Origin: Hyphomonas atlantica corrig.
GTDB taxonomy: Bacteria; Pseudomonadota; Alphaproteobacteria; Caulobacterales; Hyphomonadaceae
Reading direction: 5' to 3'
DNA: 64,000 nt
Assembly: GCF_000682715.1 (NCBI RefSeq)
Contig: NZ_AWFH01000001.1
Location: 558,001 to 622,000, forward strand
The notes beneath the pieces were generated by a model. That model was not told where the DNA came from, ran no database searches, and saw nothing but the letters and a program-made list of their open reading frames with translations. This document shows, in pieces, positions 1 through 35,407 of the stretch; within the stretch, counting starts at the first letter, position 1, and each line of letters opens with the position of its first letter. A program made the translations under genes and the position numbers.

Positions 1-747
1 GCCCAAAGCCCCGTCAATCGCTTCGCGAACACGCCAGATATCGAACGGCTTCGAGATCAGACCATCCGCCTGCGCAGCCTCTTCTGGTGAGACACGCTCT
101 GGATGCGCAGTGATGTAAACCGTCGGAATGCGCCAGCCCACCAAACAGCAGATCTTCTGGACGGCGTCTTTGCCGCTTTCGCTATGATGAAGCTGAATAT
201 CTGAGAGGATCAATTCAAACTGTTTCGAGCGCGCAAGCTCTACAGCTTCGTCCAGCGTGTGAGCGATGCCAGCCACGTGGTGTCCGGACTGCTCAACCAA
301 TACCCCCAACAACTCTGCCATATGCGGCTCATCTTCGATGATTAGCACGCCTGTGCACCGCGCGGCGGAAACTATGGGCCGAACGCGGTTGAGAACATAC
401 TCGACGGTTCCGAGGCTTATCCCGGTAATTCGCGCGACCTGGCACGGTTCAAACCGGCCAATCGCCGTAAGCAACAGGCATCTTCGCTCATAAAGGGTCA
501 GCCCCCGCAACGTTTCCAATGCCGCTCCGCCATCGCTCATCGCCTGCAGGTGGTTCAGCAATCTCGCATCGACCGATTGGAACAAATCCTCTCGGCTTAC
601 TTCCTGGCACTCGGACGTCTCGTCATCGTAAACAAGGTCCTTCAACACATGACCGACGATTTCGTCCCCAGCGACTGTGTCCTCAATGAGCAAGTGCGCA
701 TACGAGCGTAGCGATGGGAGCGCCTCGGATACAGCTTTGAAAATCAA
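1..747 (-). CDS. PhyR-like response regulator (sigma-like domain + receiver), C-terminus cut by window edge
   Basis: Reading the minus strand gives about 249 residues with no stop before the edge. The first ~125 residues resemble a degenerate ECF sigma factor (sigma2-like, then a sigma4-like segment with LTLYERRCLLLTAIGRF). A receiver domain follows, with VLIIEDEP, phosphoacceptor Asp in LILSDIQL, and a Lys in LISKPFD. This is the PhyR architecture, in which phosphorylation lets the sigma-like part bind NepR and free EcfG. The start is probably TTG at 747, because GAGGGG lies 7 bases upstream and no ATG is better placed. A second protein of the same layout is at 31025-31816. Only about 10-20 residues should be missing. 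It could serve a different anti-sigma factor from the second copy. Confidence 0.85.
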   Translation of the reverse strand, partial: MIFKAVSEALPSLRSYAHLLIEDTVAGDEIVGHVLKDLVYDDETSECQEVSREDLFQSVDARLLNHLQAMSDGGAALETLRGLTLYERRCLLLTAIGRFEPCQVARITGISLGTVEYVLNRVRPIVSAARCTGVLIIEDEPHMAELLGVLVEQSGHHVAGIAHTLDEAVELARSKQFELILSDIQLHHSESGKDAVQKICCLVGWRIPTVYITAHPERVSPEEAAQADGLISKPFDIWRVREAIDGALG

Positions 748-1182
748 GAACGGTCCCCTCTTCTTGATATCGGGCCAAGGTTTGCTCGCGAGCACTCAGT
801 GCTTGCTTGGCAATTATTTCCGGTAGGAAGATACGCCTCTAGGCAGCTTGCTTCTACTTGAAAGCGCAGCAAAACTGTCAATTATCCCTCTTTTTGGCGC
901 ATTATATTGCCGAATCTGCCACGCTATCTGGATGTTAACTCTATCAAACAACAATCGATTTCATTCATATTGGTCGCAACGGACGGTTGGCGAGTCGCGA
1001 AGGTATTTCAGACCGGAAATGGTTTGAGCACTTGCTTCGAAAGCACGCGAATCTGAAACTATCCAACAAGATCATACACACTACCTGACTTGGGACACTT
1101 TGCTTATGTTTCGTCTATGCCAGTCTGGCCGCTCATTTCGTGAGGGGACATTCGGTCAGGCGCAGTCGCCGAGACCACTGAA
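748..1182. other. Divergent intergenic region, no gene seen
   Basis: This 435-base gap separates the divergent PhyR-like gene and the hybrid kinase gene. I find no open frame with a ribosome site. I also find no GGAAC-type EcfG promoter on either strand, unlike the stress island at 27-33 kb. Both promoters should lie here, but I cannot point to convincing -35/-10 pairs. Confidence 0.5.
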
Positions 1183-4100
1183 ATGACGGAACAGCCTCAT
1201 TCCAGAAACCTGGTCCTGAAGAACGTGACAGGTACCGGCGCGATTCGATCGCTGACCGTTAGAGCGCTCGCTGTTAGTATCCTCGCATATGTGATCGCAG
1301 TCGCTGCAATCGAATTCACAAGAGGCGCAGGTCAGATCGCCACAATCTGGCCGATCAATGCCATCTTGATCGCCCTTCTACTGAAAAGCCATCGCTCCAA
1401 CTGGCTGTCGCTCCTTGTCGCCACCGGCATGGGCCTGTTCGCCGCGAACTTGACTTCAGGCAATGACATTCCGCGATCCGCCATTCTCACTCTCGCGAAT
1501 CTCGCTGAGATCTGCTGCGTCCTTTACGTTTTTGAGCGCGTGCCTTCCGTTCGCTTCTTCAGTCTGCCGGGAATTTCAGTTCTTGTGGCAGGGTCGACCA
1601 TCGGATGCGCGATTTCTGCTGGATTGGCCGCCATTGGTTTACTGGTAACAGGCGAGGCATTCGTCCTGCGCGAAGCATTGAACTGGTTTTCTGCGGACTT
1701 CCTTGGCATTTTGCTATTCGCGCCAATCACCTGGTCTCTTCTGGAGCGCTCTTCGAAGTACGGCACCAGTGCCCCAGACTTTCAGTATGTTGCAAAGCTC
1801 GGTTTACTTTGCGCAACGACTTTCTTCGTCTTCGCGCAAAGCGCTTATCCATTCCTGTTCCTGGTGCCGCCTGCGCTGGTATTCTTGGCCTTCAGCCGAG
1901 GAGTGAAAGCCGCGGCAGTTGGCCTTCTTATGATCACGGCCATCGCACTCCCCTTTACGCTTGCCGGGTCCGGCCCGCTCGCGCTGATGACAGGGGATAT
2001 GATTGCGCAAATTCTCGCGCTTCAATTGTTCCTAGCGACCAATTCCGTTTTGGGGTTGGCAATCGGCGCAGCAGCATCGGATCGGCGGCGGTTGATGCGA
2101 CAAATCCGGAAATCCCGGGCTCGACTAAGAGACAAGTCGCGGGAACAACAGGAAATGCTGGCCAAAGCCCATCTCGCAGAACGCATGGCCGGCGTTGGGC
2201 ACTGGACGTTGAATCCCGTCACTCAGGAAGTCGCCTGGTCTCCGGAAGTTTACGCTATTCACGGCGTTACGCCGGAAGAGTTCAATCCGATGTATGGCGA
2301 CGCCATTCTATTTTACGCGAAAGAAGATCGTGATCGGATTCGCGACCTCGTCCAACATGCAATTACGGATGCCCAAGGCTGGGAATTCGAAGCCACACTC
2401 ATCCGAAAGTCCGATGGTCAGAAGCGGCGTGTGCGGTCTATCGGTGAAATACTGACCGACAGGGAAGGGAACGTTGAGCGCATCTTCGGTGTATTCAAGG
2501 ACATCACAGATGAGCAACGGGTGATCGAAGCGCTTGCAAGCAGTGAGGCAAATTATCGGACCATTGCTGACAACTCTACCGACATCATTGTTCGCTTCGG
2601 TCTGGATGGCATCATTACCTATGCGTCGCCATCATGCGAAATTCTCGGCGTGACTTCTGAAACCGCTATCGGACTGTCAACCATCGACTTCACTATCCCG
2701 GAAGACAAGGATTTCGCGTCCTCAGTTACGAGGGATTTATTCGAGAACAACTCGGTTGATCCGAGCGTACTCAGGGAATTCCGTGTTCGAGACAAGGACG
2801 GAAACATCATCTGGCTTGAGGGCAATCCGAAGATAATTCGCAGCTCCGATGGGAAGCCAGTAGAAATTATCTCGACCTTCCGCGACATTACGGACCGCAA
2901 GGAGCGAGAAACAGCACTCGCCGAAGCCAGGGCCGAGGCTGAAGCCGCCGAGAAGGCAAAGGCAGAATTCCTGTCGAATATGAGCCACGAGATACGAACG
3001 CCTCTGAACGGCATACTGGGATTCACACAACTGCTCAGCCAGACAGATCTGAATGCTGAGCAAAAACTGTTCGCTCAACGCGCGTTGTCGGCAGGGGGGA
3101 TGCTCCGTGATATCGTCAACGATATATTGGACTATTCGAAGATTGAAGCCGGGCGGGTCGTTCTCGAAGATCGCCCAGTCGATGTTGCAAACACGATACA
3201 GGAAACCATCGAGATTGTTCTCGCGGGGCGGGAAGGAAAAACCGTTCCCATAACGACTTCGGCCGGTACGATTGCCCTGTATACTGATGAGGTTCGACTC
3301 AAGCAGATTTTGACCAACCTACTGAGCAATGCTGCGAAATTTACAGAATCGGGAAGCATCCACATCAGCGCCCACGTGCTTGAAGATGCACTGAATCTGA
3401 CTGTCACCGATACGGGGCCGGGTATACCTGCAGAAAAACTTGAAAGCGTTTTCGAAGGCTTCCGCCAAGCGGACAACAGTATAACGCGCGTCTATGGTGG
3501 CACTGGACTCGGCTTGTCGATCAGCCGGTCGTTGGCACGCCTGATGGGCGGTGAACTCACTCTGGATAGCACGGTGGGCGAAGGAACCTCCGCGACATTG
3601 ATCCTGCCATACCGACCAGCGTCCCAAGACGAAGTATCGGGACGCGCCACACGGGCGTCACCCGGTCAGACAAAACAGATGCGGATCATGGCCGTCGACG
3701 ACGTGCGGATGAACCTCGAACTGGTGAAACTGGGTCTGAAAAAATTTGGTCACACCGTGGAAGTCTTCCAGTCCGCCCAAGAAGCAATTGAGGATCTGCG
3801 CGCCGGGGGCAATTATGACGTCATTCTCATGGATGTTCAGATGCCGGAACTGGATGGTATGACAGCAACCCGCATGATCCGCGAATTGGACGAACCGGCC
3901 AGAAACATACCCATCATTGCCCTGACCGCGAATGTGATGCCCGAGCAGATATCCAATTGCCTGGCGGCGGGCATGAACGCTCACGTCGCTAAGCCAATCG
4001 ACATCACCGAACTGAATAGCCGGATCGCGGAACTTTGTGATGCGACAGCGCGCGCATCGGCGCCAGAACCCGAGACAGACCCCATAGGTGCGCTCACGGA

Positions 4101-4368
4101 CCGATACCGAGAGTATCTCTCAACTGTCCCGGATGAAGTTTCGAAGATCTTCGACATTGAAAATTCAGAGGATGTGCTACGCGAAATCCGCCAACTGGCC
4201 CATTCGATTGCCGGCAGCGCGGGAAGCTTCGGATTCAAGGAAGTCTCTGACGCGGCCTTCTCGCTGGAGTCCGTTGCTTCAAAGCTGGCAGAAGACGGGA
4301 AACCCACGCAAGAACTGGCGGCAGGGCTGAAAAGCTTTCTGCAAGCCACAGAACGGGCTGCCTCGTGA
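1183..4368 (+). CDS. Hybrid sensor histidine kinase (MASE1-PAS-PAS-HisKA-HATPase-REC-HPt)
   Basis: This 1061-residue membrane kinase starts with a multi-helix MASE1-type sensor (about residues 25-310) and a short coiled segment. Two PAS domains with PAC tails follow (about 340-455 and 456-580; DITDEQR and DITDRKE mark their ends). The HisKA box MSHEIRTPLNG puts the phospho-His at 602. The ATPase domain has DTGPGIP and GGTGLGLSI. The receiver Asp is near 884 in LMDVQMPELDG, and an HPt-like domain carries AHSIAGSAG with His near 1007. It is therefore a complete internal phosphorelay. The gene is divergent from the PhyR-like regulator and could be linked to it functionally, but kinases that act on PhyR are usually HisKA_2 or HWE type. 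The signal is unknown. The start codon has no strong ribosome site. Confidence 0.9.
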   Translation: MTEQPHSRNLVLKNVTGTGAIRSLTVRALAVSILAYVIAVAAIEFTRGAGQIATIWPINAILIALLLKSHRSNWLSLLVATGMGLFAANLTSGNDIPRSAILTLANLAEICCVLYVFERVPSVRFFSLPGISVLVAGSTIGCAISAGLAAIGLLVTGEAFVLREALNWFSADFLGILLFAPITWSLLERSSKYGTSAPDFQYVAKLGLLCATTFFVFAQSAYPFLFLVPPALVFLAFSRGVKAAAVGLLMITAIALPFTLAGSGPLALMTGDMIAQILALQLFLATNSVLGLAIGAAASDRRRLMRQIRKSRARLRDKSREQQEMLAKAHLAERMAGVGHWTLNPVTQEVAWSPEVYAIHGVTPEEFNPMYGDAILFYAKEDRDRIRDLVQHAITDAQGWEFEATLIRKSDGQKRRVRSIGEILTDREGNVERIFGVFKDITDEQRVIEALASSEANYRTIADNSTDIIVRFGLDGIITYASPSCEILGVTSETAIGLSTIDFTIPEDKDFASSVTRDLFENNSVDPSVLREFRVRDKDGNIIWLEGNPKIIRSSDGKPVEIISTFRDITDRKERETALAEARAEAEAAEKAKAEFLSNMSHEIRTPLNGILGFTQLLSQTDLNAEQKLFAQRALSAGGMLRDIVNDILDYSKIEAGRVVLEDRPVDVANTIQETIEIVLAGREGKTVPITTSAGTIALYTDEVRLKQILTNLLSNAAKFTESGSIHISAHVLEDALNLTVTDTGPGIPAEKLESVFEGFRQADNSITRVYGGTGLGLSISRSLARLMGGELTLDSTVGEGTSATLILPYRPASQDEVSGRATRASPGQTKQMRIMAVDDVRMNLELVKLGLKKFGHTVEVFQSAQEAIEDLRAGGNYDVILMDVQMPELDGMTATRMIRELDEPARNIPIIALTANVMPEQISNCLAAGMNAHVAKPIDITELNSRIAELCDATARASAPEPETDPIGALTDRYREYLSTVPDEVSKIFDIENSEDVLREIRQLAHSIAGSAGSFGFKEVSDAAFSLESVASKLAEDGKPTQELAAGLKSFLQATERAAS

Positions 4369-27419: not shown

Positions 27420-27444
27420 GGAACCCGTATCGCAAATCGACGTT
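27420..27444 (+). promoter_or_regulatory. EcfG promoter of the entericidin-like gene
   Basis: GGAAC-N16-CGTT matches the EcfG consensus exactly. It ends 33 bases before the ATG at 27478, a normal leader length. Confidence 0.8.
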
Positions 27445-27477
27445 GTTTGACTGTTCGAATTAGAAAGGACACAGATT

Positions 27478-27639
27478 ATGAGAAATACAATGAAAATCGC
27501 TAGCGTCGGCGCTCTCGGCGCACTCGCAACCCTCCTTGCAGCTTGCAACACGGTCGACGGGGTTGGCAAAGACGTTGAAGCAGGTGGAGAAGTGATCCAA
27601 GATGCTTCCAATGAAGTTAAAGAAGACATCAACGACTAA
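27478..27639 (+). CDS. Entericidin-like small lipoprotein, 53 residues
   Basis: The frame reads MRNTMKIASVGALGALATLL then AACNTVDGVGKDVEAGG, ending in Asp-rich EVKEDIND. The lipobox LLAAC and CNTVxGxGxDVxxxG pattern are those of the EcnA/EcnB entericidin family, small outer-membrane lipoproteins linked to stationary phase and stress. AAGGA precedes the ATG, an exact EcfG promoter is upstream and a strong terminator follows, so it is a self-contained stress-induced gene. It is short and easily missed by gene finders. Confidence 0.88.
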   Translation: MRNTMKIASVGALGALATLLAACNTVDGVGKDVEAGGEVIQDASNEVKEDIND

Positions 27640-27661
27640 GTTGGTTCTTAACTACCTGAAT

Positions 27662-27689
27662 AAGCGCGCTCCTAGGGGCGCGCTTTTTT
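27662..27689 (+). terminator. Rho-independent terminator of the entericidin-like gene
   Basis: AAGCGCGC pairs with GCGCGCTT around an 8-base loop, followed by a T run and C. It is 22 bases after the stop codon. Confidence 0.85.
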
Positions 27690-27735
27690 CGTACTTTCAT
27701 AAGAATCCTGAACCGAAGTTTTCCGACAATGGGCG

Positions 27736-27963
27736 TTACTTGCCAGACGGCAGCAATAGGACGCGGGATGCTCTTCGACACTGAAGCCGGCCGCATTTGT
27801 TCCAGGCACAGGAACAAACCTGACTGAGCGCCACGATCACCATAGACAACACCGCGCTTACCTTACCGATCCCAATGAGTCGGAACAGCACTTTCAGGTT
27901 TGCAGAAAGACCTTGATTGGCACAAGGAGCATCAATTATCAGGCGGGGCATATTGGAACTCAT
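27736..27963 (-). CDS. Doubtful small ORF under a minus-strand EcfG promoter
   Basis: A 75-residue frame (from ATG 27963, or 71 from ATG 27951) contains one hydrophobic stretch GKVSAVLSMVIVALSQVC and an Arg-rich end. I do not recognise it. Its support is positional: an exact EcfG promoter on this strand ends nine bases upstream of the first ATG. That leaves a leader of only a few bases, or about 15 to the second ATG, and there is no clear ribosome site. The transcript may instead be a non-coding stress RNA. Confidence 0.3.
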   Translation of the reverse strand: MSSNMPRLIIDAPCANQGLSANLKVLFRLIGIGKVSAVLSMVIVALSQVCSCAWNKCGRLQCRRASRVLLLPSGK

Positions 27964-27971
27964 ACCCTTCA

Positions 27972-27996
27972 AACGCCGCCCTTCGCTGACGGTTCC
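27972..27996 (-). promoter_or_regulatory. EcfG promoter, minus strand
   Basis: Minus-strand GGAAC-N16-CGTT, an exact consensus match. It is divergent from the exact match at 28011 with only 14 bases between their -35 elements. It reads toward the doubtful ORF at 27736-27963. Confidence 0.7.
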
Positions 27997-28010
27997 CATC
28001 TCAGCTCGAC

Positions 28011-28035
28011 GGAACATGCGATCAACTACTGCGTT
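28011..28035 (+). promoter_or_regulatory. EcfG promoter of the acidic lipoprotein gene
   Basis: GGAAC-N16-CGTT, an exact match, 29 bases before the ATG at 28065. Confidence 0.8.
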
Positions 28036-28064
28036 GAACCCTCAGCTACCGAGGACGAAGAAAT

Positions 28065-28328
28065 ATGAGAAACTCCATTTTTGCCGCCGCTGCTCTATCA
28101 GCAAGCATGTTAAGTGCATGTAATTACGATAGCCAATCACATGGTGTGGAAACACCAGACGCAGAGGTATCGAACCCAGTTGAGGAAGAAATGCAAGAGA
28201 CAGGCGAAAGCCTGCGGGACGCTGCAGATAATGCAGCCGAGGAGATCGAAGCAGCCAGCGAAGAAGCTGAGAATGCGGTCAACGAGGCTGGTGAATCGAT
28301 GACTGAATCTACCGATATTCCACAATAG
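28065..28328 (+). CDS. Small acidic lipoprotein of the stress regulon
   Basis: The 87-residue protein has a lipoprotein signal ALSASMLSAC (Cys at 19). A very acidic helical tail follows, with heptad-like repeats rich in Glu, Ala and Asp (AADNAAEEIEAASEEAENAV). I do not recognise a family beyond entericidin-like or coiled-coil lipoproteins. An exact EcfG promoter is upstream and a hairpin terminator is downstream. Confidence 0.8.
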   Translation: MRNSIFAAAALSASMLSACNYDSQSHGVETPDAEVSNPVEEEMQETGESLRDAADNAAEEIEAASEEAENAVNEAGESMTESTDIPQ

Positions 28329-28351
28329 TTTCGAACTACCGCCAAAATCGA

Positions 28352-28372
28352 AGCCCGGACATGGTCCGGGCT
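28352..28372. terminator. Hairpin between convergent lipoprotein and kinase genes
   Basis: AGCCCGGAC pairs perfectly with GTCCGGGCT around a 3-base loop. The T run after it on the plus strand is interrupted (CTCTTT), so it may act weakly or in both directions. Confidence 0.6.
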
Positions 28373-28385
28373 CTTTGCTAAGATC

Positions 28386-30080
28386 TCAAAGGTCCATCAC
28401 CAAGCGGTGAGAACATCCTTGACCTGGTTTGGCTTCCGTCGTGAACTCCGCCGAAAGCTGTCTCGCAAAAGCAACCATCAGCTTTGACCCAAGACCAGAG
28501 CTCCCATCCTTCACCTCATATCCGAGCCCTGTATCCCTTATCTCAAGAGTAACAGTTTCGGAATCAGCGGTCAGATTTACTGCAACTTCGCCGCCATCTT
28601 CCTCAAATGCATACTTCATCGCATTTGTGACCGCCTCGACAATGAACAAAGCCATCGGAATTGCATCATCTGCGTCACGCTGAATATCATCATAGGTCTG
28701 AACAAGATTGATACCAGATTCGGTCATTCCCAACGCATCCGAAAGATGGTTCAGCAGCCCGGTCAAGAATGGGCGCATGTCAACGCTCTCCAGTCGCTCG
28801 TTCTGGTAAAGTGTCTGATGCACAATTGCCAAGGCATCGATTCTATGTCGCGTTGCGGAAATAGCTTCTTTGGCTTGCGGATCTTTTAGCTGGCGCCCTT
28901 GAAGGTTCAAGAAACTCGTTACGATCTGGAGGTTGTTTTTCACCCGATGGTGAATCTCTTTCACCGCTGCATCGCGGGTCGCAATCGCTTCTTTCAGATC
29001 CCGGTCCCGGTGATCGATATCCTGCGCCATCACTTCCATCGCGCGGGCCAGGCTTCGGATTTCAGAGGGCGCATCAGAGAACGAGTTGCCCGCTTTGAAC
29101 TGATATCTACCCGCACCGTATATACGGACCGTGCGCGTCAGTCTGGAAATCCAGCGAAGTACAAGCCCGTCAATCGCCAGCCACGCCGACAAGAGCGTTA
29201 CGGCAAAGGCGAGAAGGGGCAAACCGAAGGATGTTGCAGGGCGTACAAAAAGGTCATTCCATAAGCCATATGACGGTCTCGCTATCACCGCGTAGATGTT
29301 CGAGTCTCCGACGGGTCGAAGGGCTACGTCAACGGTGCTTACGTCAGTCTCGTCCGCCCGGAACAATTGTGCATCGCGAGTTTCGTTCACCGCTTCGATC
29401 CATTCTTCCGGAATGGACGTAATGGGCGTATCTCCGAACACACGTCCTGTTTCGTCGGCAATCGCGAGCGAAACGGATTCTGGCAAATACCCCGTGCGGA
29501 CAAGGTTTGCCAGATCGACTGCACCCAGCGCAAATGTGTTTATTCCAGTGAACTCGCCCGTTTCGTTTTCGACGCGCTTGTTCAAGGCGAACAACCATTC
29601 TTCACTTGCGGATCCAAAGAAGGCATCACTTCGCGCAAAAGAATCTCCGCCAGAGCGGAGACGATCATGCAAGACCTGATTCTCACGACTTAGTTTGGGA
29701 GAACCGACGGCGGCGCAGATCACGTCACTCTTTTCGTCGAATGCGACAACATTCGTGAGAGACGGAATATACTCGATCAGCTCGTTATACACCCCACTAC
29801 ATTCTCCGGCTGATAGCCGCGGCTCGTAGAGAGATAGCAACAACTCCGCCTGCTGAAGCGATTGATTCACGCCATCAATTGCTGCGCCAGCCACGATCAC
29901 CAGGTTCTGAGCCTGGCTCTCCCGTACGTCGCTGGCGTCGATGTAGGCTTTAAAGGCGGACAAGAGCAGGACAGGCGTTAGCGCCGCGGCAAGCGTCAGG
30001 ACGAGCTTGTTCCGGAGCGGCGCTGCACTTGGGGGTGCGCTATCTGACTCTATTACTTCTTGATCATCCGACACCGGCAA
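28386..30080 (-). CDS. HisKA_2-family sensor histidine kinase of the general stress response
   Basis: The 564-residue protein has a membrane helix at about 27-45 and a ~230-residue periplasmic sensor. A second helix with HAMP-like linker follows, then the HisKA_2 box IHHRVKNNLQIVTSFLNLQG and an ATPase domain with DTGLGYEV and GLGSKLM. HisKA_2 kinases of this kind (PhyK/PhyP/PakF types) control PhyR. It is the third gene of nepR-ecfG-kinase and overlaps ecfG by 17 bases, starting at TTG 30080 or GTG 30074. It probably phosphorylates, or dephosphorylates, the divergent PhyR. Confidence 0.87.
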   Translation of the reverse strand: MPVSDDQEVIESDSAPPSAAPLRNKLVLTLAAALTPVLLLSAFKAYIDASDVRESQAQNLVIVAGAAIDGVNQSLQQAELLLSLYEPRLSAGECSGVYNELIEYIPSLTNVVAFDEKSDVICAAVGSPKLSRENQVLHDRLRSGGDSFARSDAFFGSASEEWLFALNKRVENETGEFTGINTFALGAVDLANLVRTGYLPESVSLAIADETGRVFGDTPITSIPEEWIEAVNETRDAQLFRADETDVSTVDVALRPVGDSNIYAVIARPSYGLWNDLFVRPATSFGLPLLAFAVTLLSAWLAIDGLVLRWISRLTRTVRIYGAGRYQFKAGNSFSDAPSEIRSLARAMEVMAQDIDHRDRDLKEAIATRDAAVKEIHHRVKNNLQIVTSFLNLQGRQLKDPQAKEAISATRHRIDALAIVHQTLYQNERLESVDMRPFLTGLLNHLSDALGMTESGINLVQTYDDIQRDADDAIPMALFIVEAVTNAMKYAFEEDGGEVAVNLTADSETVTLEIRDTGLGYEVKDGSSGLGSKLMVAFARQLSAEFTTEAKPGQGCSHRLVMDL

Positions 30081-30660
30081 TATCGTCCGCCTGCCGCATG
30101 ATGTCGTTGAATGCGTCCTCTGCCTTCATGTTGGAATCATCGCTGAAACCTGCGCCATTCGTCTCAAGGATCTCAACGATCGCCTTGCGCGCACGAGAAA
30201 CACGGCTCTTGATAGTTCCGACAGCAACACCACAAATTTCCGCAGCCTCTTCGTAAGGCAGCCCGCCCGCTCCAACGAGAATCAGCGCCTCCCGCTGGTC
30301 GATCGGCAACATGCCCAGCGCATTGCGCATGGCCAAAAGGTCTATCGAGTCTGAAGGATTGCTGTTGGAGACCAGTGTAGCTTCTGCGACTTCGGGGTCG
30401 AGCGGCGTTCGCCGCCAGGAACGGCGCTTTTCGGAATAAAACACGTTGCGAAGAATGGTGAAGGCCCACGCCTTCATGTTCGTCCCGGCCTGGAAGGATT
30501 CACGCGCATTCCACGCTTTCAGCATTGCATCCTGGGCCAAGTCGTCGGCGAGGGTTGCATCACCGCACAGGCTGCGGGCAAATGCGCGCAAGTGCGGGAT
30601 CAGCTCGGCCAGCTCGCGCTTGAATTCCGCGTCGCTCAGCTTTTCCTTATTGTCTGTCAT
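30064..30660 (-). CDS. ecfG: EcfG-type sigma factor of the general stress response (copy 1)
   Basis: The 198-residue ECF15-group sigma factor has region 2 LRAFARSLCGDATLADDLAQ then DAMLKAWN and region 4 ALILVGAGGLPYEEAAEICG and GTIKSRVSRARK. It directs RNA polymerase to GGAAC-N16/17-CGTT promoters. The ATG at 30660 starts 10 bases after the nepR stop; longer frames would run through nepR. It is paired with NepR, its anti-sigma factor, and the kinase. A paralogue is at 34404-35003. Confidence 0.92.
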   Translation of the reverse strand: MTDNKEKLSDAEFKRELAELIPHLRAFARSLCGDATLADDLAQDAMLKAWNARESFQAGTNMKAWAFTILRNVFYSEKRRSWRRTPLDPEVAEATLVSNSNPSDSIDLLAMRNALGMLPIDQREALILVGAGGLPYEEAAEICGVAVGTIKSRVSRARKAIVEILETNGAGFSDDSNMKAEDAFNDIMRQADDIAGVG

Positions 30661-30670
30661 GGCCGCCCCC

Positions 30671-30883
30671 TCAGGATTTGTCTGAGGTTGAAGATGGGCG
30701 AGCCTTGTCAGCTTCTTCGAGAAGCCGAAGAAACTCGTCCGGAACATCTTCTTGCGCAACTTCGTCGTACACGCGCCGCAATTGTTCACCAATGCGCTGC
30801 GTCCGCCTCTTGCTTCCGAGGTCGGATTTGACGGCGTTTGTGCGTCCGGTCTTGTCCATTCCGTCTAAACTATCCTGATTCAC
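30671..30883 (-). CDS. nepR: NepR anti-sigma factor (copy 1)
   Basis: The 70-residue protein has the NepR core IGEQLRRVYDEVAQEDVPDE followed by FLRLLEEAD, two helices that hold EcfG. Phosphorylated PhyR competes for it. It starts at GTG 30883 or ATG 30859, and an EcfG-like promoter lies 35 bases upstream, so the operon is autoregulated. It heads nepR-ecfG-kinase and is divergent from phyR, the standard alphaproteobacterial layout. Confidence 0.9.
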   Translation of the reverse strand: MNQDSLDGMDKTGRTNAVKSDLGSKRRTQRIGEQLRRVYDEVAQEDVPDEFLRLLEEADKARPSSTSDKS

Positions 30884-30917
30884 GATCCAAATACCTACTA
30901 TATGAGTCTAATCCATA

Positions 30918-30942
30918 AACCTACAGGCAGCGTAAAAGTTCC
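30918..30942 (-). promoter_or_regulatory. EcfG promoter of nepR-ecfG-kinase
   Basis: Minus-strand GGAAC-N16-GGTT, one base from consensus; it gives positive feedback by EcfG. Confidence 0.75.
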
Positions 30943-31024
30943 AACAAAGTGCAGTTTTTTGCACTATGGTGGAACCTAGACGGGTTTCAGGAATTATTAA
31001 TGCGGTCCCAGAAGAGAGGTTCCC

Positions 31025-31816
31025 ATGAGTTTGGTACAATCCTTCGCCCCCCATTTGCCGTTTCTTCGGCGATACGCGCGGGCACTAACCGGCAGTCAAG
31101 ATAGCGGCGACGCTTACATTCGCGCATCCCTGCAGGCACTCGTCGAAAATCCTGATATTGTTGAGGATTCTGAAGATCCGAGACTTTCCCTGTATCGTTT
31201 CTTCCATGTTATCTGGGGAACGACAGGCGCACAATTGGAAGGCAAAGCTGCTGCGTCCAGTGACCCGGCGGACACACGCCTTCAATCGCTAGCCCCAATT
31301 CAGCGTCAGGCTTTCCTGCTGACAGCACTCGAAGGCTTTTCTGCCTCCGAAGCGGCCTACATTCTCGGAATTTCCGATGATGAGCAGCGCATGCTTGAAC
31401 AAGACGCGCAAAAAGAGATCGAAAGCGAACTGGCCACGAAGGTCCTCATCATCGAGGATGAGCCGATCATTGCGGCAGACCTAGAAAGCCTTGTCGAAGA
31501 TCTCGGTCACACCGTCACCGGCATTGCCACGACCCACCGTGAGGCGCTTTCTCTCTTCGGCGCCGACCTGCCTGGGCTCGTGCTTTGCGACATCCAATTG
31601 GCCGATGGGTCCTCAGGCATTGATGCGGCCCACGATATTCTTGCCGACCACGATGTTCCAATCATCTTCATTACAGCCTTCCCCGAGCGACTGCTCACCG
31701 GCGAACGTCCAGAACCAACCTATCTGATTCCAAAGCCGTTCCAGGAGAATACTGTGAAGGCCGCGATCGGCCAGGCGCTCTTTTTCCATCCTGCACACAA
31801 CAAGGTGGATGCTTGA
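31025..31816 (+). CDS. phyR: PhyR response regulator (anti-anti-sigma) of the general stress response
   Basis: The 263-residue protein has an ECF-sigma-like N-terminal half (sigma2-like about 10-80, sigma4-like about 85-135 with FSASEAAYILGISDD). The receiver domain follows with VLIIEDEPII, phospho-Asp in LVLCDIQLADG, Thr in FITAF and Lys in PKPFQ. It is divergent from nepR. AGAGAGG lies just before the ATG. A second PhyR-like protein is at the left edge of the window. No good EcfG promoter is seen before it: a GGAAC at 30971 lacks the CGTT. Confidence 0.92.
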   Translation: MSLVQSFAPHLPFLRRYARALTGSQDSGDAYIRASLQALVENPDIVEDSEDPRLSLYRFFHVIWGTTGAQLEGKAAASSDPADTRLQSLAPIQRQAFLLTALEGFSASEAAYILGISDDEQRMLEQDAQKEIESELATKVLIIEDEPIIAADLESLVEDLGHTVTGIATTHREALSLFGADLPGLVLCDIQLADGSSGIDAAHDILADHDVPIIFITAFPERLLTGERPEPTYLIPKPFQENTVKAAIGQALFFHPAHNKVDA

Positions 31817-31837
31817 TCCCAACATCTGGCGATCAAC

Positions 31838-31876
31838 AAAAGGCCGCTCCCGACAAGTCTGGAGCGGCCTTTTTTG
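31838..31876. terminator. Bidirectional terminator between phyR and the 47-residue gene
   Basis: AAAAGGCCGCTCC and GGAGCGGCCTTTTTT form a strong stem with A and T tracts on the two sides. It can serve phyR on the plus strand and the small gene on the minus strand. Confidence 0.85.
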
Positions 31877-31894
31877 TATGTGATTGGAGATCGT

Positions 31895-32038
31895 CTAGGC
31901 CGTAATAGCGAAGGCGAGCAACATTCCGATAAGAGCGATCACGATGCCAATCGCCATAACATTCAACAGGCCTGTTCGGCGGCGGCCCTGACGGGCTTCT
32001 GTTGTTGATACTTCTTTTTCTTTGTGAGTAGTTTGCAT
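31895..32038 (-). CDS. Small membrane protein, 47 residues
   Basis: The frame reads MQTTHKEKEVSTTEARQGRR, then a helix NVMAIGIVIALIGMLLAFAI. A charged N-terminus and a single C-terminal membrane helix suggest a tail-anchored inner-membrane peptide. GGAGAA precedes the ATG. It lies 57 bases after the Crp/Fnr gene on the same strand and before a terminator, so it is probably the second gene of that EcfG-driven unit. I know no named family. Confidence 0.7.
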   Translation of the reverse strand: MQTTHKEKEVSTTEARQGRRRTGLLNVMAIGIVIALIGMLLAFAITA

Positions 32039-32095
32039 CTTATTCTCCAGTAATTGAAATCGGGACTATTGGCGTCGAGCAGGGCTTTTGAATCT

Positions 32096-32878
32096 TCAGC
32101 GGACGACACCATTCTCCATTCGAGCTCCATTCAGCGCGCGTTCCGCCAGCTCAGGTTGAGCTACAAAATCCAGCTTCCGCATGTGCAGATAGTCTGTATC
32201 GAACTGCGACAGGGCGGTGAGGCGATCCCGGTCCAGAATCGTTATTTGTCCCCGCGATTCATCGATCAGCCCCGCGCGGCGGAGCGCAGACATGGTTCGA
32301 GATACATGCACAGGTGTCAGTCCCAGCGCATCTGCCATGTCCGTGCGCGTAAGGGGCATCGGCAAGTGAACTTCAGAACCGCCCATCGCCGCATGCATGC
32401 GCCGCTGTAGCTCCAGCAGAAGATGCGCAATGCGTTCTTTGGCTGATCGGCGACCGATGCGGACAATCTGCTCCCTGAGGATCGACTCCTCCTGGACCGA
32501 CGCCCACCAGAAAGCGGATGCTATATCCGCATTGCTTCTCAGACAGTGAATAAATTGCTCTGCGCTTACGGCCTGCACCGCCATCCGAGTCAAGGCAGTC
32601 ACGGAATGATCGGCTTCCACACCCGCCACAACCTGCAAGTCAAAGACATCTCCAGGCAGCATGAAGTTGACAATTTGCCGGCGACCGTCGTCCAGGGTTC
32701 GGTACCGGATCGCCCAGCCATCTTTCACGAAGTACATGTTGCGGGGTTTCTCCCCCACGCGAATGATGTCCTCATTCGCGTGGAAGACGCGCGACCGTAG
32801 ATCAAGATGGTCAAACCGCTCCCACACATCAGGCGGGAGGGTAACATACCGGGACAATCTGTTTCTGAAAGCATCCAT
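32096..32878 (-). CDS. Crp/Fnr-family transcriptional regulator
   Basis: The 260-residue protein has a cyclic-nucleotide-binding-like beta-roll (MYFVKDGWAIRYRTLDDGRR, FMLPGDVFDLQ), a long dimer helix and a Crp-type winged helix LTRTDMADALGLTPVHVSRT. No N-terminal cysteine cluster for an Fe-S centre is present. An exact EcfG promoter ends 8 bases before the ATG, so the transcript may be nearly leaderless. It would then make a secondary regulator in the stress response. The following 47-residue gene is likely co-transcribed. Confidence 0.87.
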   Translation of the reverse strand: MDAFRNRLSRYVTLPPDVWERFDHLDLRSRVFHANEDIIRVGEKPRNMYFVKDGWAIRYRTLDDGRRQIVNFMLPGDVFDLQVVAGVEADHSVTALTRMAVQAVSAEQFIHCLRSNADIASAFWWASVQEESILREQIVRIGRRSAKERIAHLLLELQRRMHAAMGGSEVHLPMPLTRTDMADALGLTPVHVSRTMSALRRAGLIDESRGQITILDRDRLTALSQFDTDYLHMRKLDFVAQPELAERALNGARMENGVVR

Positions 32879-32886
32879 GTGATCAG

Positions 32887-32911
32887 AACGTAGATGTGGT
32901 GTAATTGTTCC
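32887..32911 (-). promoter_or_regulatory. EcfG promoter of the Crp/Fnr gene
   Basis: Minus-strand GGAAC-N16-CGTT, an exact match. The start codon begins only 8 bases after the -10 element. It is divergent from the promoter at 32937 with 25 bases between. Confidence 0.78.
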
Positions 32912-32936
32912 TCTTCACAAAACTGATCCAGTTGGA

Positions 32937-32961
32937 GGAACAAACTCGGCGTCTGGTCGTT
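32937..32961 (+). promoter_or_regulatory. EcfG promoter of the DUF883-holin-like operon
   Basis: GGAAC-N16-CGTT, an exact match, 32 bases before the GTG at 32994. Confidence 0.8.
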
Positions 32962-32993
32962 TGTATTATGTATCCCAATACAGGAGATTAATC

Positions 32994-33293
32994 GTGAATA
33001 CCAAGACGGCGAGTACGCTCAAAGCTGGAACCGAAAATGACTACGCAGCCCTGAAAGACGACATCGCGATGCTGCGCAGTGACCTCAAAAATGTCATGGA
33101 GGACGTCCGTGGACTTGCAAAAGTCAAAGCTCAAGCAGGAGTGGAGAAAGGCACGGAGTTTGCCGAGAAGGCATCTGGACAATTCAAGGAGACACGGGGC
33201 GAAGTTGAAGCTGAAATTCGCAAGAACCCGTTTGCTGCTGTTGGAATCGCCTTCGGTGCTGGACTGATCCTCGCGATGATGCGAGGCAAATAA
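32994..33293 (+). CDS. DUF883 (ElaB/YqjD-like) membrane-anchored protein
   Basis: The protein is about 99 residues: a helical, charged N-terminal ~70 residues (YAALKDDIAMLRSDLKNVME) and a C-terminal anchor RKNPFAAVGIAFGAGLILAM, typical of ElaB/YqjD proteins that tether ribosomes or other partners to the membrane in stationary phase. The start is GTG, 7 bases after AGGAGA. An upstream TTG would overlap the promoter -10. It is first of three co-directional genes. Confidence 0.85.
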   Translation: MNTKTASTLKAGTENDYAALKDDIAMLRSDLKNVMEDVRGLAKVKAQAGVEKGTEFAEKASGQFKETRGEVEAEIRKNPFAAVGIAFGAGLILAMMRGK

Positions 33294-33296
33294 TCT

Positions 33297-33695
33297 ATGG
33301 ATGCGACCAAGCTCAGGCTGTTCGCGGCAGTCGCCGGAATCGTCAGCGGTTTCGGCGGCATGCTTGCACTTTCCGTTGCAGGCGTGCTCGCCTTATCTTC
33401 CGTCATCGGACTGATCGCGGCTTGCTTTACGGTCGCGGCCCTTCTGATCGGCATAGCCGCCCTCATGCTATATATCTTTCTCCTGCCATACCGGAAATCC
33501 TCCGAGGAGATTGATGATCTGGAAGAGACGACAGCGAACGCCCTGGCAGATCTTCCATTCGACACCTTGAAGTCACTCGTTCAAAAATATCCCGTATCTG
33601 TGTCGGCTGGCGCAATGTTGCTTGGGTACACCCTCGTGAGGGATCCCAAAACAGCGACTCGGCATGCGCAACGACTTCTGCTCGGATTGCTATAG
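33297..33695 (+). CDS. Holin-like (YqjE-type) membrane protein
   Basis: The 132-residue protein has two long hydrophobic helices (about 8-35 and 38-65) and a basic C-terminus. In enterobacteria YqjE follows YqjD (DUF883), and the same order is seen here three bases apart, so a joint envelope function under stress is likely. No lysis genes are nearby, hence this is not a phage holin. Confidence 0.75.
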   Translation: MDATKLRLFAAVAGIVSGFGGMLALSVAGVLALSSVIGLIAACFTVAALLIGIAALMLYIFLLPYRKSSEEIDDLEETTANALADLPFDTLKSLVQKYPVSVSAGAMLLGYTLVRDPKTATRHAQRLLLGLL

Positions 33696-33750
33696 AAGAT
33701 CGCTCCCATAAATCTCAGACAAGCTGCCGAATTCTTCCTATATTGGAGAG

Positions 33751-34398
33751 ATGAGATCATTCTTCCTCATAGCTTCTGCCGTTGGCGCAGGCTTGGCATT
33801 CGGACGCCGCTACCTTGAAAAAGGAGTGTCGTCGCAGAAAAATCAGGCAATCGAAGCTGCCGCAATCGAAACACGCCGACGCATCAAGCGTCATGCTGAC
33901 GACTTCCTGAAGAGGAGCTTTCGGGCATTCGCAATTGCCACAGGTATCAAGCTCACGCTGCTGATCGCACTGTGGGGGCTCGCGCACTATGGAGCGCTGG
34001 AGCGTCAGCACTTTGTCTTGAGCGTCTCGGTCGTGCTCGGGCTGTTCCTTATCAGGGACATCTGGGTGTCGTGGCCGTTTGTTCGTCTGGGCCTTACGGA
34101 GTTAGCGCGCTATGGATGGCGACCCAAGCTGGCCTTGAGCGAGGTTGTCGCGGGACATGTATTTCAGCAGGTACTGACTGAAGCCCAAGCCGCGCCCGCG
34201 ACTCGCACTTCGAAAATCATGCTGATGCTGGCGGGGCAATCGCGAGAAGGTCTGGAGCAGGATATTGCAAGCTCAGTCGCCGCAATTGCGCGGAATACTA
34301 CCTGGTCGGATTTGCGTCCGTTCCTGATTTCGGCCGGCATAAAGACCGGGGCGCTCATGGCACTTTATTCGGTCAGCGTCTTCTTGCTACTCGCTTGA
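33751..34398 (+). CDS. Membrane protein of unknown function in the stress operon
   Basis: The 215-residue protein has an N-terminal helix, a basic stretch ETRRRIKRHADDFLKRSF, two central helices and a C-terminal helix (GALMALYSVSVFLLLA). I do not recognise a family. It follows the DUF883 and holin-like genes by 55 bases without a visible promoter, so it is probably read with them. It ends 5 bases from the convergent second ecfG. Confidence 0.65.
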   Translation: MRSFFLIASAVGAGLAFGRRYLEKGVSSQKNQAIEAAAIETRRRIKRHADDFLKRSFRAFAIATGIKLTLLIALWGLAHYGALERQHFVLSVSVVLGLFLIRDIWVSWPFVRLGLTELARYGWRPKLALSEVVAGHVFQQVLTEAQAAPATRTSKIMLMLAGQSREGLEQDIASSVAAIARNTTWSDLRPFLISAGIKTGALMALYSVSVFLLLA

Positions 34399-34403
34399 GC
34401 TCA

Positions 34404-35003
34404 CTAGGCCGCACGAGCCATCAGGCCTTCAGCATACATTACCAACCCGTTGAGCGTCGAGCGATCCATATCATCTTGGCCCCCATCATTGGAAATGACC
34501 GGTATGAGACCATTGAGACCGTCCATCAGTACAGCACGAGCTCTGTTCACCCGGCTTTTGATCGTGCCCGGGGAACAATTCATTATCGCGCCGGCTTCCT
34601 CATAGGTGAGACCAGCCGCGAGAACCAGAATGACGGCATCCCGCTGCTTCAGCGGTAGCGCGTAGATAGCCTGAATTGCATGAGACGCTTCGCTTTGAAG
34701 TTCGGCAGACGTGTAGTCCACGAGCGTCTCTTCCAGGAATTCAGACTCCACGTCCACATTCCGCCACGCACGGCGACAATGCTGAAGGTATTCATTTCTG
34801 ACGATCCGCAGGATCCAGGGCCTCATCTGCGCAGTGCGGTCGAACGTATCCGCAGCGCTCCACGCCTTTAGACAGGCCGATTGTACAATGTCATCGGCAA
34901 GCGTTGCATCATTGCACAGGCTACGCGCGAAGGCTCGCATCTGCGGCAAGAGCGCTTCCAGCTCATCCACGAAAGACCAGGATTCGTTGATTGTCTCTGT
35001 CAT
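34404..35003 (-). CDS. EcfG-type sigma factor, second copy
   Basis: The 199-residue protein is clearly related to the sigma factor at 30064 (shared MRAFARSLCNDATLADDI, LTYEEAGAIMNCSPGTIKSR). It differs in region 2.4 (NEYLQHCRRAWR) and linker, so promoter choice could differ. It lies 22 bases after a second nepR on the same strand, forming a full second anti-sigma/sigma pair about 4 kb from the first. No clear EcfG promoter precedes the pair. Confidence 0.88.
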   Translation of the reverse strand: MTETINESWSFVDELEALLPQMRAFARSLCNDATLADDIVQSACLKAWSAADTFDRTAQMRPWILRIVRNEYLQHCRRAWRNVDVESEFLEETLVDYTSAELQSEASHAIQAIYALPLKQRDAVILVLAAGLTYEEAGAIMNCSPGTIKSRVNRARAVLMDGLNGLIPVISNDGGQDDMDRSTLNGLVMYAEGLMARAA

Positions 35004-35025
35004 TAGCGTAGTCCCACCCGCGCGA

Positions 35026-35211
35026 TTATTTCTTTCTGGATTTTTCCGCTTGTCGCATTGTCTCTATCAAGTGCTGCAGCCTCAGCGGCACCGGCTCTGA
35101 GAGCACATCGGAGTAGAGACCGCGCAGCTGTTGTCCGAAGACGTGAGCCGACCTGCCGCCTGGCGATAAAGGCTTGCGGTCTCGCCGACGTTTCGAAGGT
35201 TTCGAGCTCAT
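35026..35211 (-). CDS. NepR-like anti-sigma factor, second copy
   Basis: This 61-residue protein has a basic N-terminus and the NepR core FGQQLRGLYSDVLSEPVPLR followed by LQHLIETMRQAE. It diverges from copy 1 in charge (Arg/Lys-rich ends) and in the second helix. Its neighbour is the second EcfG, which it should sequester. Whether PhyR at 31025 or that at 1-747 displaces it is open. Confidence 0.82.
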   Translation of the reverse strand: MSSKPSKRRRDRKPLSPGGRSAHVFGQQLRGLYSDVLSEPVPLRLQHLIETMRQAEKSRKK

Positions 35212-35407
35212 GGGAAGCGTTTATCCCGTCAGCTGCATAATAAACCATGAACGTGTCCCCTCATCCCAAGACGGGATACTTCCCCTAGAGTAAAGCACTC
35301 CGGGGTTAAGGAAACGAAAATAGATATCTCATTTTTTCAAGGTACTAAACAGCGCCTTGATGTTCCCTGGCCTGTAGTATTTGCTACAGAACTCGACCTT
35401 CAGGCGG

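Follow-up and report, generated by a model that had tools for sequence, protein, structure and literature searches.

Does a bacterium that carries two nepR-ecfG pairs 4 kb apart run one general stress response (GSR) or two? The question is raised by a 64,000-nucleotide stretch of the Hyphomonas atlantica genome (3.60 Mb), hereafter the window (G000:C1:558001-622000), in which a first-pass annotation had noticed both pairs and suggested a two-input stress switch. Our literature search found no study of the GSR in Hyphomonas. The features of the window considered below are the following.

1..795, minus strand: phyR3, a fast-diverging PhyR paralogue (Pfam, PhyR tree)
27420..27444, plus strand: EcfG-type promoter 5' of an entericidin-like gene (27478-27639)
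28011..28035, plus strand: EcfG-type site 5' of a small putative lipoprotein gene (28065-28328)
28386..30080, minus strand: HisKA_2 sensor histidine kinase, PhyK-like, 564 aa (HisKA_2, 89 bits)
30064..30660, minus strand: ecfG1, canonical EcfG (ECF15-type) sigma factor (Pfam, EcfG trees)
30671..30883, minus strand: nepR1, class 1 NepR anti-sigma factor (PF18557, 54.9 bits)
30918..30942, minus strand: EcfG-type promoter GGAAC-N16-GGTT, 5' of nepR1-ecfG1 (pattern search)
31025..31816, plus strand: phyR1, canonical PhyR, divergent (sigma-like and receiver domains; NF006623, 365 bits)
32096..32878, minus strand: Crp/Fnr-family regulator, putative EcfG target
32887..32911, minus strand: EcfG-type promoter 5' of the crp/fnr gene, kept in 8 genomes
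32937..32961, plus strand: EcfG-type promoter 5' of the DUF883-like gene, kept in 8 genomes
32994..33293, plus strand: DUF883-like small protein, putative EcfG target, start codon assumed (below Pfam cutoff)
33297..33695, plus strand: Phage_holin_3_6-like membrane protein (below Pfam cutoff)
34404..35003, minus strand: ecfG2, second EcfG sigma factor, of a family-restricted clade (Pfam, EcfG trees)
35026..35211, minus strand: nepR2, class 2 NepR (PF18557, 27.7 bits; cutoff 25.7)
35212..35407, minus strand: region 5' of nepR2-ecfG2, containing a block shared by five genomes (CGTTAACC ... TTTACT)

Two GSR loci and the parts found elsewhere in the genome

The genes listed in the first-pass annotation are present, and the window contains a canonical GSR locus (28386-31816; Pfam), in which nepR1 lies directly upstream of the ECF15-type ecfG1 in one operon, accompanied by a HWE/HisKA_2 kinase gene, a divergent phyR encoding sigma-like and receiver domains and an EcfG-type promoter (GGAAC-N16/17-NGTT) upstream of nepR1-ecfG1. 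The start of the kinase gene overlaps the end of ecfG1, and its product gave a weak dCache match below the cutoff and 369.8 bits with the PhyK model NF051872 (equivalog cutoff, 750). The second pair at 34404-35211 was also correctly seen: both frames are open, have Pfam matches and form an intact operon 4 kb from the first locus, with nepR2 directly upstream of an EcfG-type sigma factor gene. The pairs have diverged as noted, EcfG1 and EcfG2 being 45.7% identical over 151 aa and the two NepR cores 40% identical over 35 aa. With a NepR model built from the family, whose seed included nepR2 itself, nepR2 scored 53.8 bits, and the NepR core is retained in nepR2 of the window and in that of G084 (52.0 bits with the same model). 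The best solved relative of EcfG2 is 5uxx_A, and chain B of 5uxx is a NepR. Chance is excluded as an explanation for the domain matches.

The description of two full sets needs trimming: the second nepR-ecfG stands, but no divergent phyR and no kinase gene adjoins it in the window. In many relatives, a phyR does adjoin ecfG2 (for example, in L044, L047, and L048). Nor is there only one kinase, as had been stated, because the genome encodes four HisKA_2 kinases above the Pfam cutoff, together with three PhyRs and three NepRs plus a weak fourth. The nepR3 gene is on contig C23, away from both ecfG genes of the window, and the third PhyR gene is on contig C45, adjoining a gene for a GAF/HisKA_2 kinase. 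The weak fourth NepR-like frame (L253:3689-3949; G000:C56:132703; core KAPPSQRLEDLMRELRKKE) is near a response-regulator gene, and similar matches occur in G093, G099 and perhaps G055 and G058.

The PhyR-like gene placed at 1-747 is present, although it actually occupies 1-795 on the minus strand and extends ∼30 bases beyond the left window edge (it is complete in L020). In its receiver, the residues D, T, and K are all present. The sigma-like domain gave a weak Pfam match, as if degenerate (25.9 bits; cutoff 27), and with NF006623 the protein scored 165.9 bits (cutoff 240). It had been read as the PhyR of the second set, and we considered whether it could be the displaced phyR of that set. 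The PhyR tree puts it elsewhere: phyR3 did not group with the phyR2 that adjoins ecfG2 in G055 and G058 but with fast-diverging PhyRs encoded 18-34 kb from ecfG2 in G028, G093, G099, and G084. This group is sister to the C45-type PhyRs; the branches are long, and its exact placement is uncertain. Divergent from phyR3, positions 1183-4368 encode a large MASE1/PAS hybrid histidine kinase with an Hpt domain. In another genome (G049:C25:156284-157395), a PhyR gene directly adjoins a weak NepR-like match, away from that genome's EcfG genes.

Age and spread of the second pair

A survey of 101 genomes of the Hyphomonas family revealed that carrying two EcfG genes is the rule in the genus of the window and common in the family. 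In a tree of 80 EcfG proteins, the EcfG2 of the window fell into a clade of 22 rows that contains family members only (support, 100/100) and stands apart both from the EcfG1 proteins and from the second EcfGs, SigU-like, of f2, a sister family in the same order which, from its NepR sequence, would be the Caulobacter family. The same split was recovered in another tree (58 rows; SH-aLRT 98). The possibility that EcfG2 is a SigU orthologue was rejected because the NepR-less second EcfGs of f2 form a separate clade. Across most of the genus, the two loci are not linked, and the second often has its own divergent phyR (as in the three loci named above); the distance between them is 4 kb in the nearest relatives of the window and in G040, G055, and G058. 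The ecfG2 gene is under purifying selection, with a dN/dS of 0.10 for G093 against G099, which is the only informative pair because synonymous sites are mostly saturated between the window and its relatives.

The first-pass annotation had asked whether phylogeny would expose a recent inactive duplicate, and we regard this outcome as highly improbable. That the two loci are closely linked (4 kb) and that nepR2 has diverged fast would fit it, but EcfG2 forms one family-only clade with 100/100 support and is therefore an old copy, so that the phylogeny already contradicts a recent origin, and the purifying selection on ecfG2 (dN/dS ∼0.1), the intact reading frames and the unlinked position of the pair in most relatives also count against it. 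The doubling had further been called unusual, which does not hold. In f109, another family of the same order, whole phyR/nepR/ecfG cassettes were doubled independently (G252, G267, and G283; L233, L234, and L235); with this, the prevalence of two EcfG genes in the genus and the 100/100 clade, the doubling is neither recent nor unique. Second or multiple EcfG/NepR/PhyR sets have been published for Sphingopyxis (PMC7083833), Methylobacterium and Sinorhizobium (PMC4814048), and Rubellimicrobium (PMC12148442), and paralogous GSR parts also occur in R. etli; at least two EcfG copies are present in about half of the complete alphaproteobacterial genomes, generally with one PhyR/NepR pair (PMC3892343). 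Overall, the doubling of the GSR set is genuine and ancient, and its kind is already known.

The arrangement resembles that of Sphingopyxis granuli TFA, which has two EcfG, two NepR, and two PhyR proteins per genome, both ecfG genes at one locus and one ecfG without an EcfG-type promoter (PMC7083833). However, ecfG2 of S. granuli TFA is the master and lacks its own NepR gene (PMC7083833), whereas the ecfG2 of the window comes with a linked nepR, and NepR1 and NepR2 belong to separate sequence classes. Rubellimicrobium thermophilum likewise has two loci (GSR and GSR'), with phyR and ecfG duplicated and with kinases, but it has a single NepR, and its loci lie apart (PMC12148442). Methylobacterium extorquens AM1 also has several EcfGs (six) and NepRs, and its paralogues are not redundant; its expansion, unlike that here, is lineage-specific, with none at the phyR locus, and two of its NepR homologues bound PhyR, with no binding to any EcfG seen (PMC4814048). 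Sinorhizobium meliloti shares the paralogous NepR (RsiA1/RsiA2) and PhyR (RsiB1/RsiB2) proteins but has one sigma factor, RpoE2, for both NepRs (as described in PMC4814048). Caulobacter SigU (described in PMC4814048) is a second EcfG in the same order, but no NepR gene adjoins the SigU-like genes of f2. Among the published paralogous GSR systems compared here, none was described with a second NepR that is linked, belongs to a distinct class and is kept family-wide.

NepR classes, EcfG-type promoters and nepR2 loss

We aligned 96 NepR cores from the family (44 EcfG1-linked, 21 EcfG2-linked, and 31 unlinked). The EcfG1-linked and EcfG2-linked NepRs could be separated in 65/65 cases (leave-one-genome-out; also with the core columns alone). 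Two residues past the core proline (VP/PVP), all class 1 NepRs have D/E (44/44) and all class 2 NepRs have R/K (21/21), and the last core position is D/E in class 1 and R in class 2. All 31 unlinked NepRs, including nepR3 of the window genome, scored as class 2 (those of G009 and G017 weakly). Because outgroup NepRs mostly carry an acidic residue (D/E) after the core proline, class 2 is derived. Two other genera of the family have also retained EcfG2-linked NepRs. New here, as judged from these alignments, is that two NepR classes track the two sigma factors, with the charge reversed at two core positions. Other full charge reversals are R33 to E in PhyR (PhyR2 and C45-type) and K159 to E/D in EcfG. 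We also considered whether EcfG and PhyR had swapped charges in parallel, at homologous positions, and rejected this, as the changes fall on columns that do not match and the shifts go both ways; R33E and K159E are only suggestive. EcfG2 differs from EcfG1 in sigma region 2 (K63R, A64P, T68R, and S76Q; EcfG1 numbering), and the recognition core of sigma region 4, GTIKSRV-RAR, is common to both.

Five strict GGAAC-N16/17-CGTT sites were found in the window, all in a 5.5-kb stretch (27420-32961), compared with 1.0 expected per 64 kb under a Markov model; the whole 3.6-Mb genome has 53. All eight genomes examined that have the same arrangement (the window and seven relatives) carry the divergent crp/fnr-DUF883 promoter pair and a site 5' of nepR1. 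Likely EcfG targets are therefore present, as the first-pass annotation had proposed, but the block is not shared in position: the sites flank the first locus, and none is at the second, where a pattern search 5' of nepR2-ecfG2 found no EcfG-type promoter even with a relaxed -10. Across the family, an EcfG-type promoter is upstream of 24/44 EcfG1 operons and 0/34 EcfG2 operons (Fisher p ∼3e-8, which overstates the evidence because the operons are related and not independent samples); the searched pattern is absent from 20/44 EcfG1 operons. This asymmetry, with an EcfG-type promoter on nepR1-ecfG1 and on no ecfG2 operon in the family, is also new and implies that set 2 is not autoregulated through an EcfG-type promoter, as GSR loci typically are.

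Close relatives share 33-38% identity in nepR2, and such very fast evolution could reflect relaxation. G093 and G099 have a common internal deletion that takes out the nepR2 core, and in G055 and G058 no NepR frame adjoins ecfG2. Despite this, ecfG2 is intact in all four genomes, which have class 2 NepRs elsewhere (nepR3 in G093 and G099). G066, G078, and G098 have EcfG2, but a search for class 2 NepRs found none in them. The deletion or absence of nepR2 in several relatives in which ecfG2 is still under purifying selection is a further new observation.

A proposed two-armed switch and its alternatives

We give about an even chance (∼0.5) to the reading that the alphaproteobacterial GSR has two arms in this bacterium. 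Arm 1 would consist of the PhyK-like kinase, PhyR1, the class 1 NepR1 and EcfG1, a canonical autoregulated switch that would drive the EcfG-type promoters clustered nearby. Arm 2 would be an old, family-wide paralogous switch made up of EcfG2 and class 2 NepRs (nepR2 in cis and nepR3 in trans), would not be EcfG-autoregulated, and would have its NepRs released most likely by non-canonical PhyRs, namely the C45 PhyR (encoded next to the GAF/HisKA_2 kinase gene) and possibly phyR3. The two NepR classes probably hold the arms partly separate, and the NepRs of arm 2 appear partly interchangeable, so that the linked nepR2 could be lost. The gene content, the phylogeny, the promoter asymmetry, the NepR classes and the nepR2 losses beside a retained ecfG2 were observed; who binds whom, which PhyR pairs with which NepR and whether there are EcfG2-specific targets we infer from these patterns; a two-input switch is possible, and we hypothesize about insulated arms versus cross-talk from sequence. 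The EcfG2 clade, the 65/65 separation of the NepR classes, the promoter asymmetry, the clustered and conserved sites and the retention of ecfG2 in G093 and G099 argue for two arms. Against them count the EcfG2/SigU paralogues of Caulobacter and Sphingomonas, which do not bind NepR, and the binding of one sigma factor by both S. meliloti RsiA proteins (PMC4814048), as well as the three genomes without a class 2 NepR, the fast evolution of nepR2 and the EcfG1 operons that lack the promoter pattern.

A stricter form of separation, which we entertain tentatively, would place two parallel and mutually insulated partner switches in each cell, with NepR, EcfG, and PhyR each in two charge-reversed specificity classes (NepR D/E to R/K, PhyR1 R33 to E, and EcfG1 K159 to E/D) and with orthogonal arms that have different inputs and possibly different -10 preferences. 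Conversely, every NepR might bind both sigma factors and all PhyRs, so that the extra copies would tune the threshold or dynamics of one GSR. This is rather doubtful, but it would be consistent with the S. meliloti RsiA proteins, which bind both RpoE2 and both RsiB proteins (PMC4814048), with the single promoter consensus of the Sphingopyxis EcfGs (PMC7083833), with the shared sigma region 4 core and with the retention of ecfG2 where nepR2 is lost (G093 and G099) or absent beside it (G055 and G058); a charge reversal at two positions that is kept across genera, in NepR classes that separate completely, and the EcfG2-specific changes in sigma region 2 speak against it. We consider it unlikely that EcfG2 is a constitutively made accessory sigma factor or amplifier over which NepR has effectively no control, with nepR2 decaying. 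Such freedom from NepR has been described for SigU and the Sphingomonas EcfG2, ecfG2 lacks an EcfG-type promoter upstream, nepR2 scores near the Pfam cutoff and is deleted in relatives, and some genomes have EcfG2 without a detected class 2 NepR; yet the NepR core is kept in nepR2 of the window and of G084, EcfG2-linked NepRs are retained in two other genera, and EcfG2 lies outside the SigU-like clade.

Many alphaproteobacteria carry extra EcfG, NepR, and PhyR copies of unclear role. In the Hyphomonas family, a second arm kept since before its genera split, together with a NepR class signature, would offer a concrete test of whether paralogous switches are insulated or pooled and of which residues decide.
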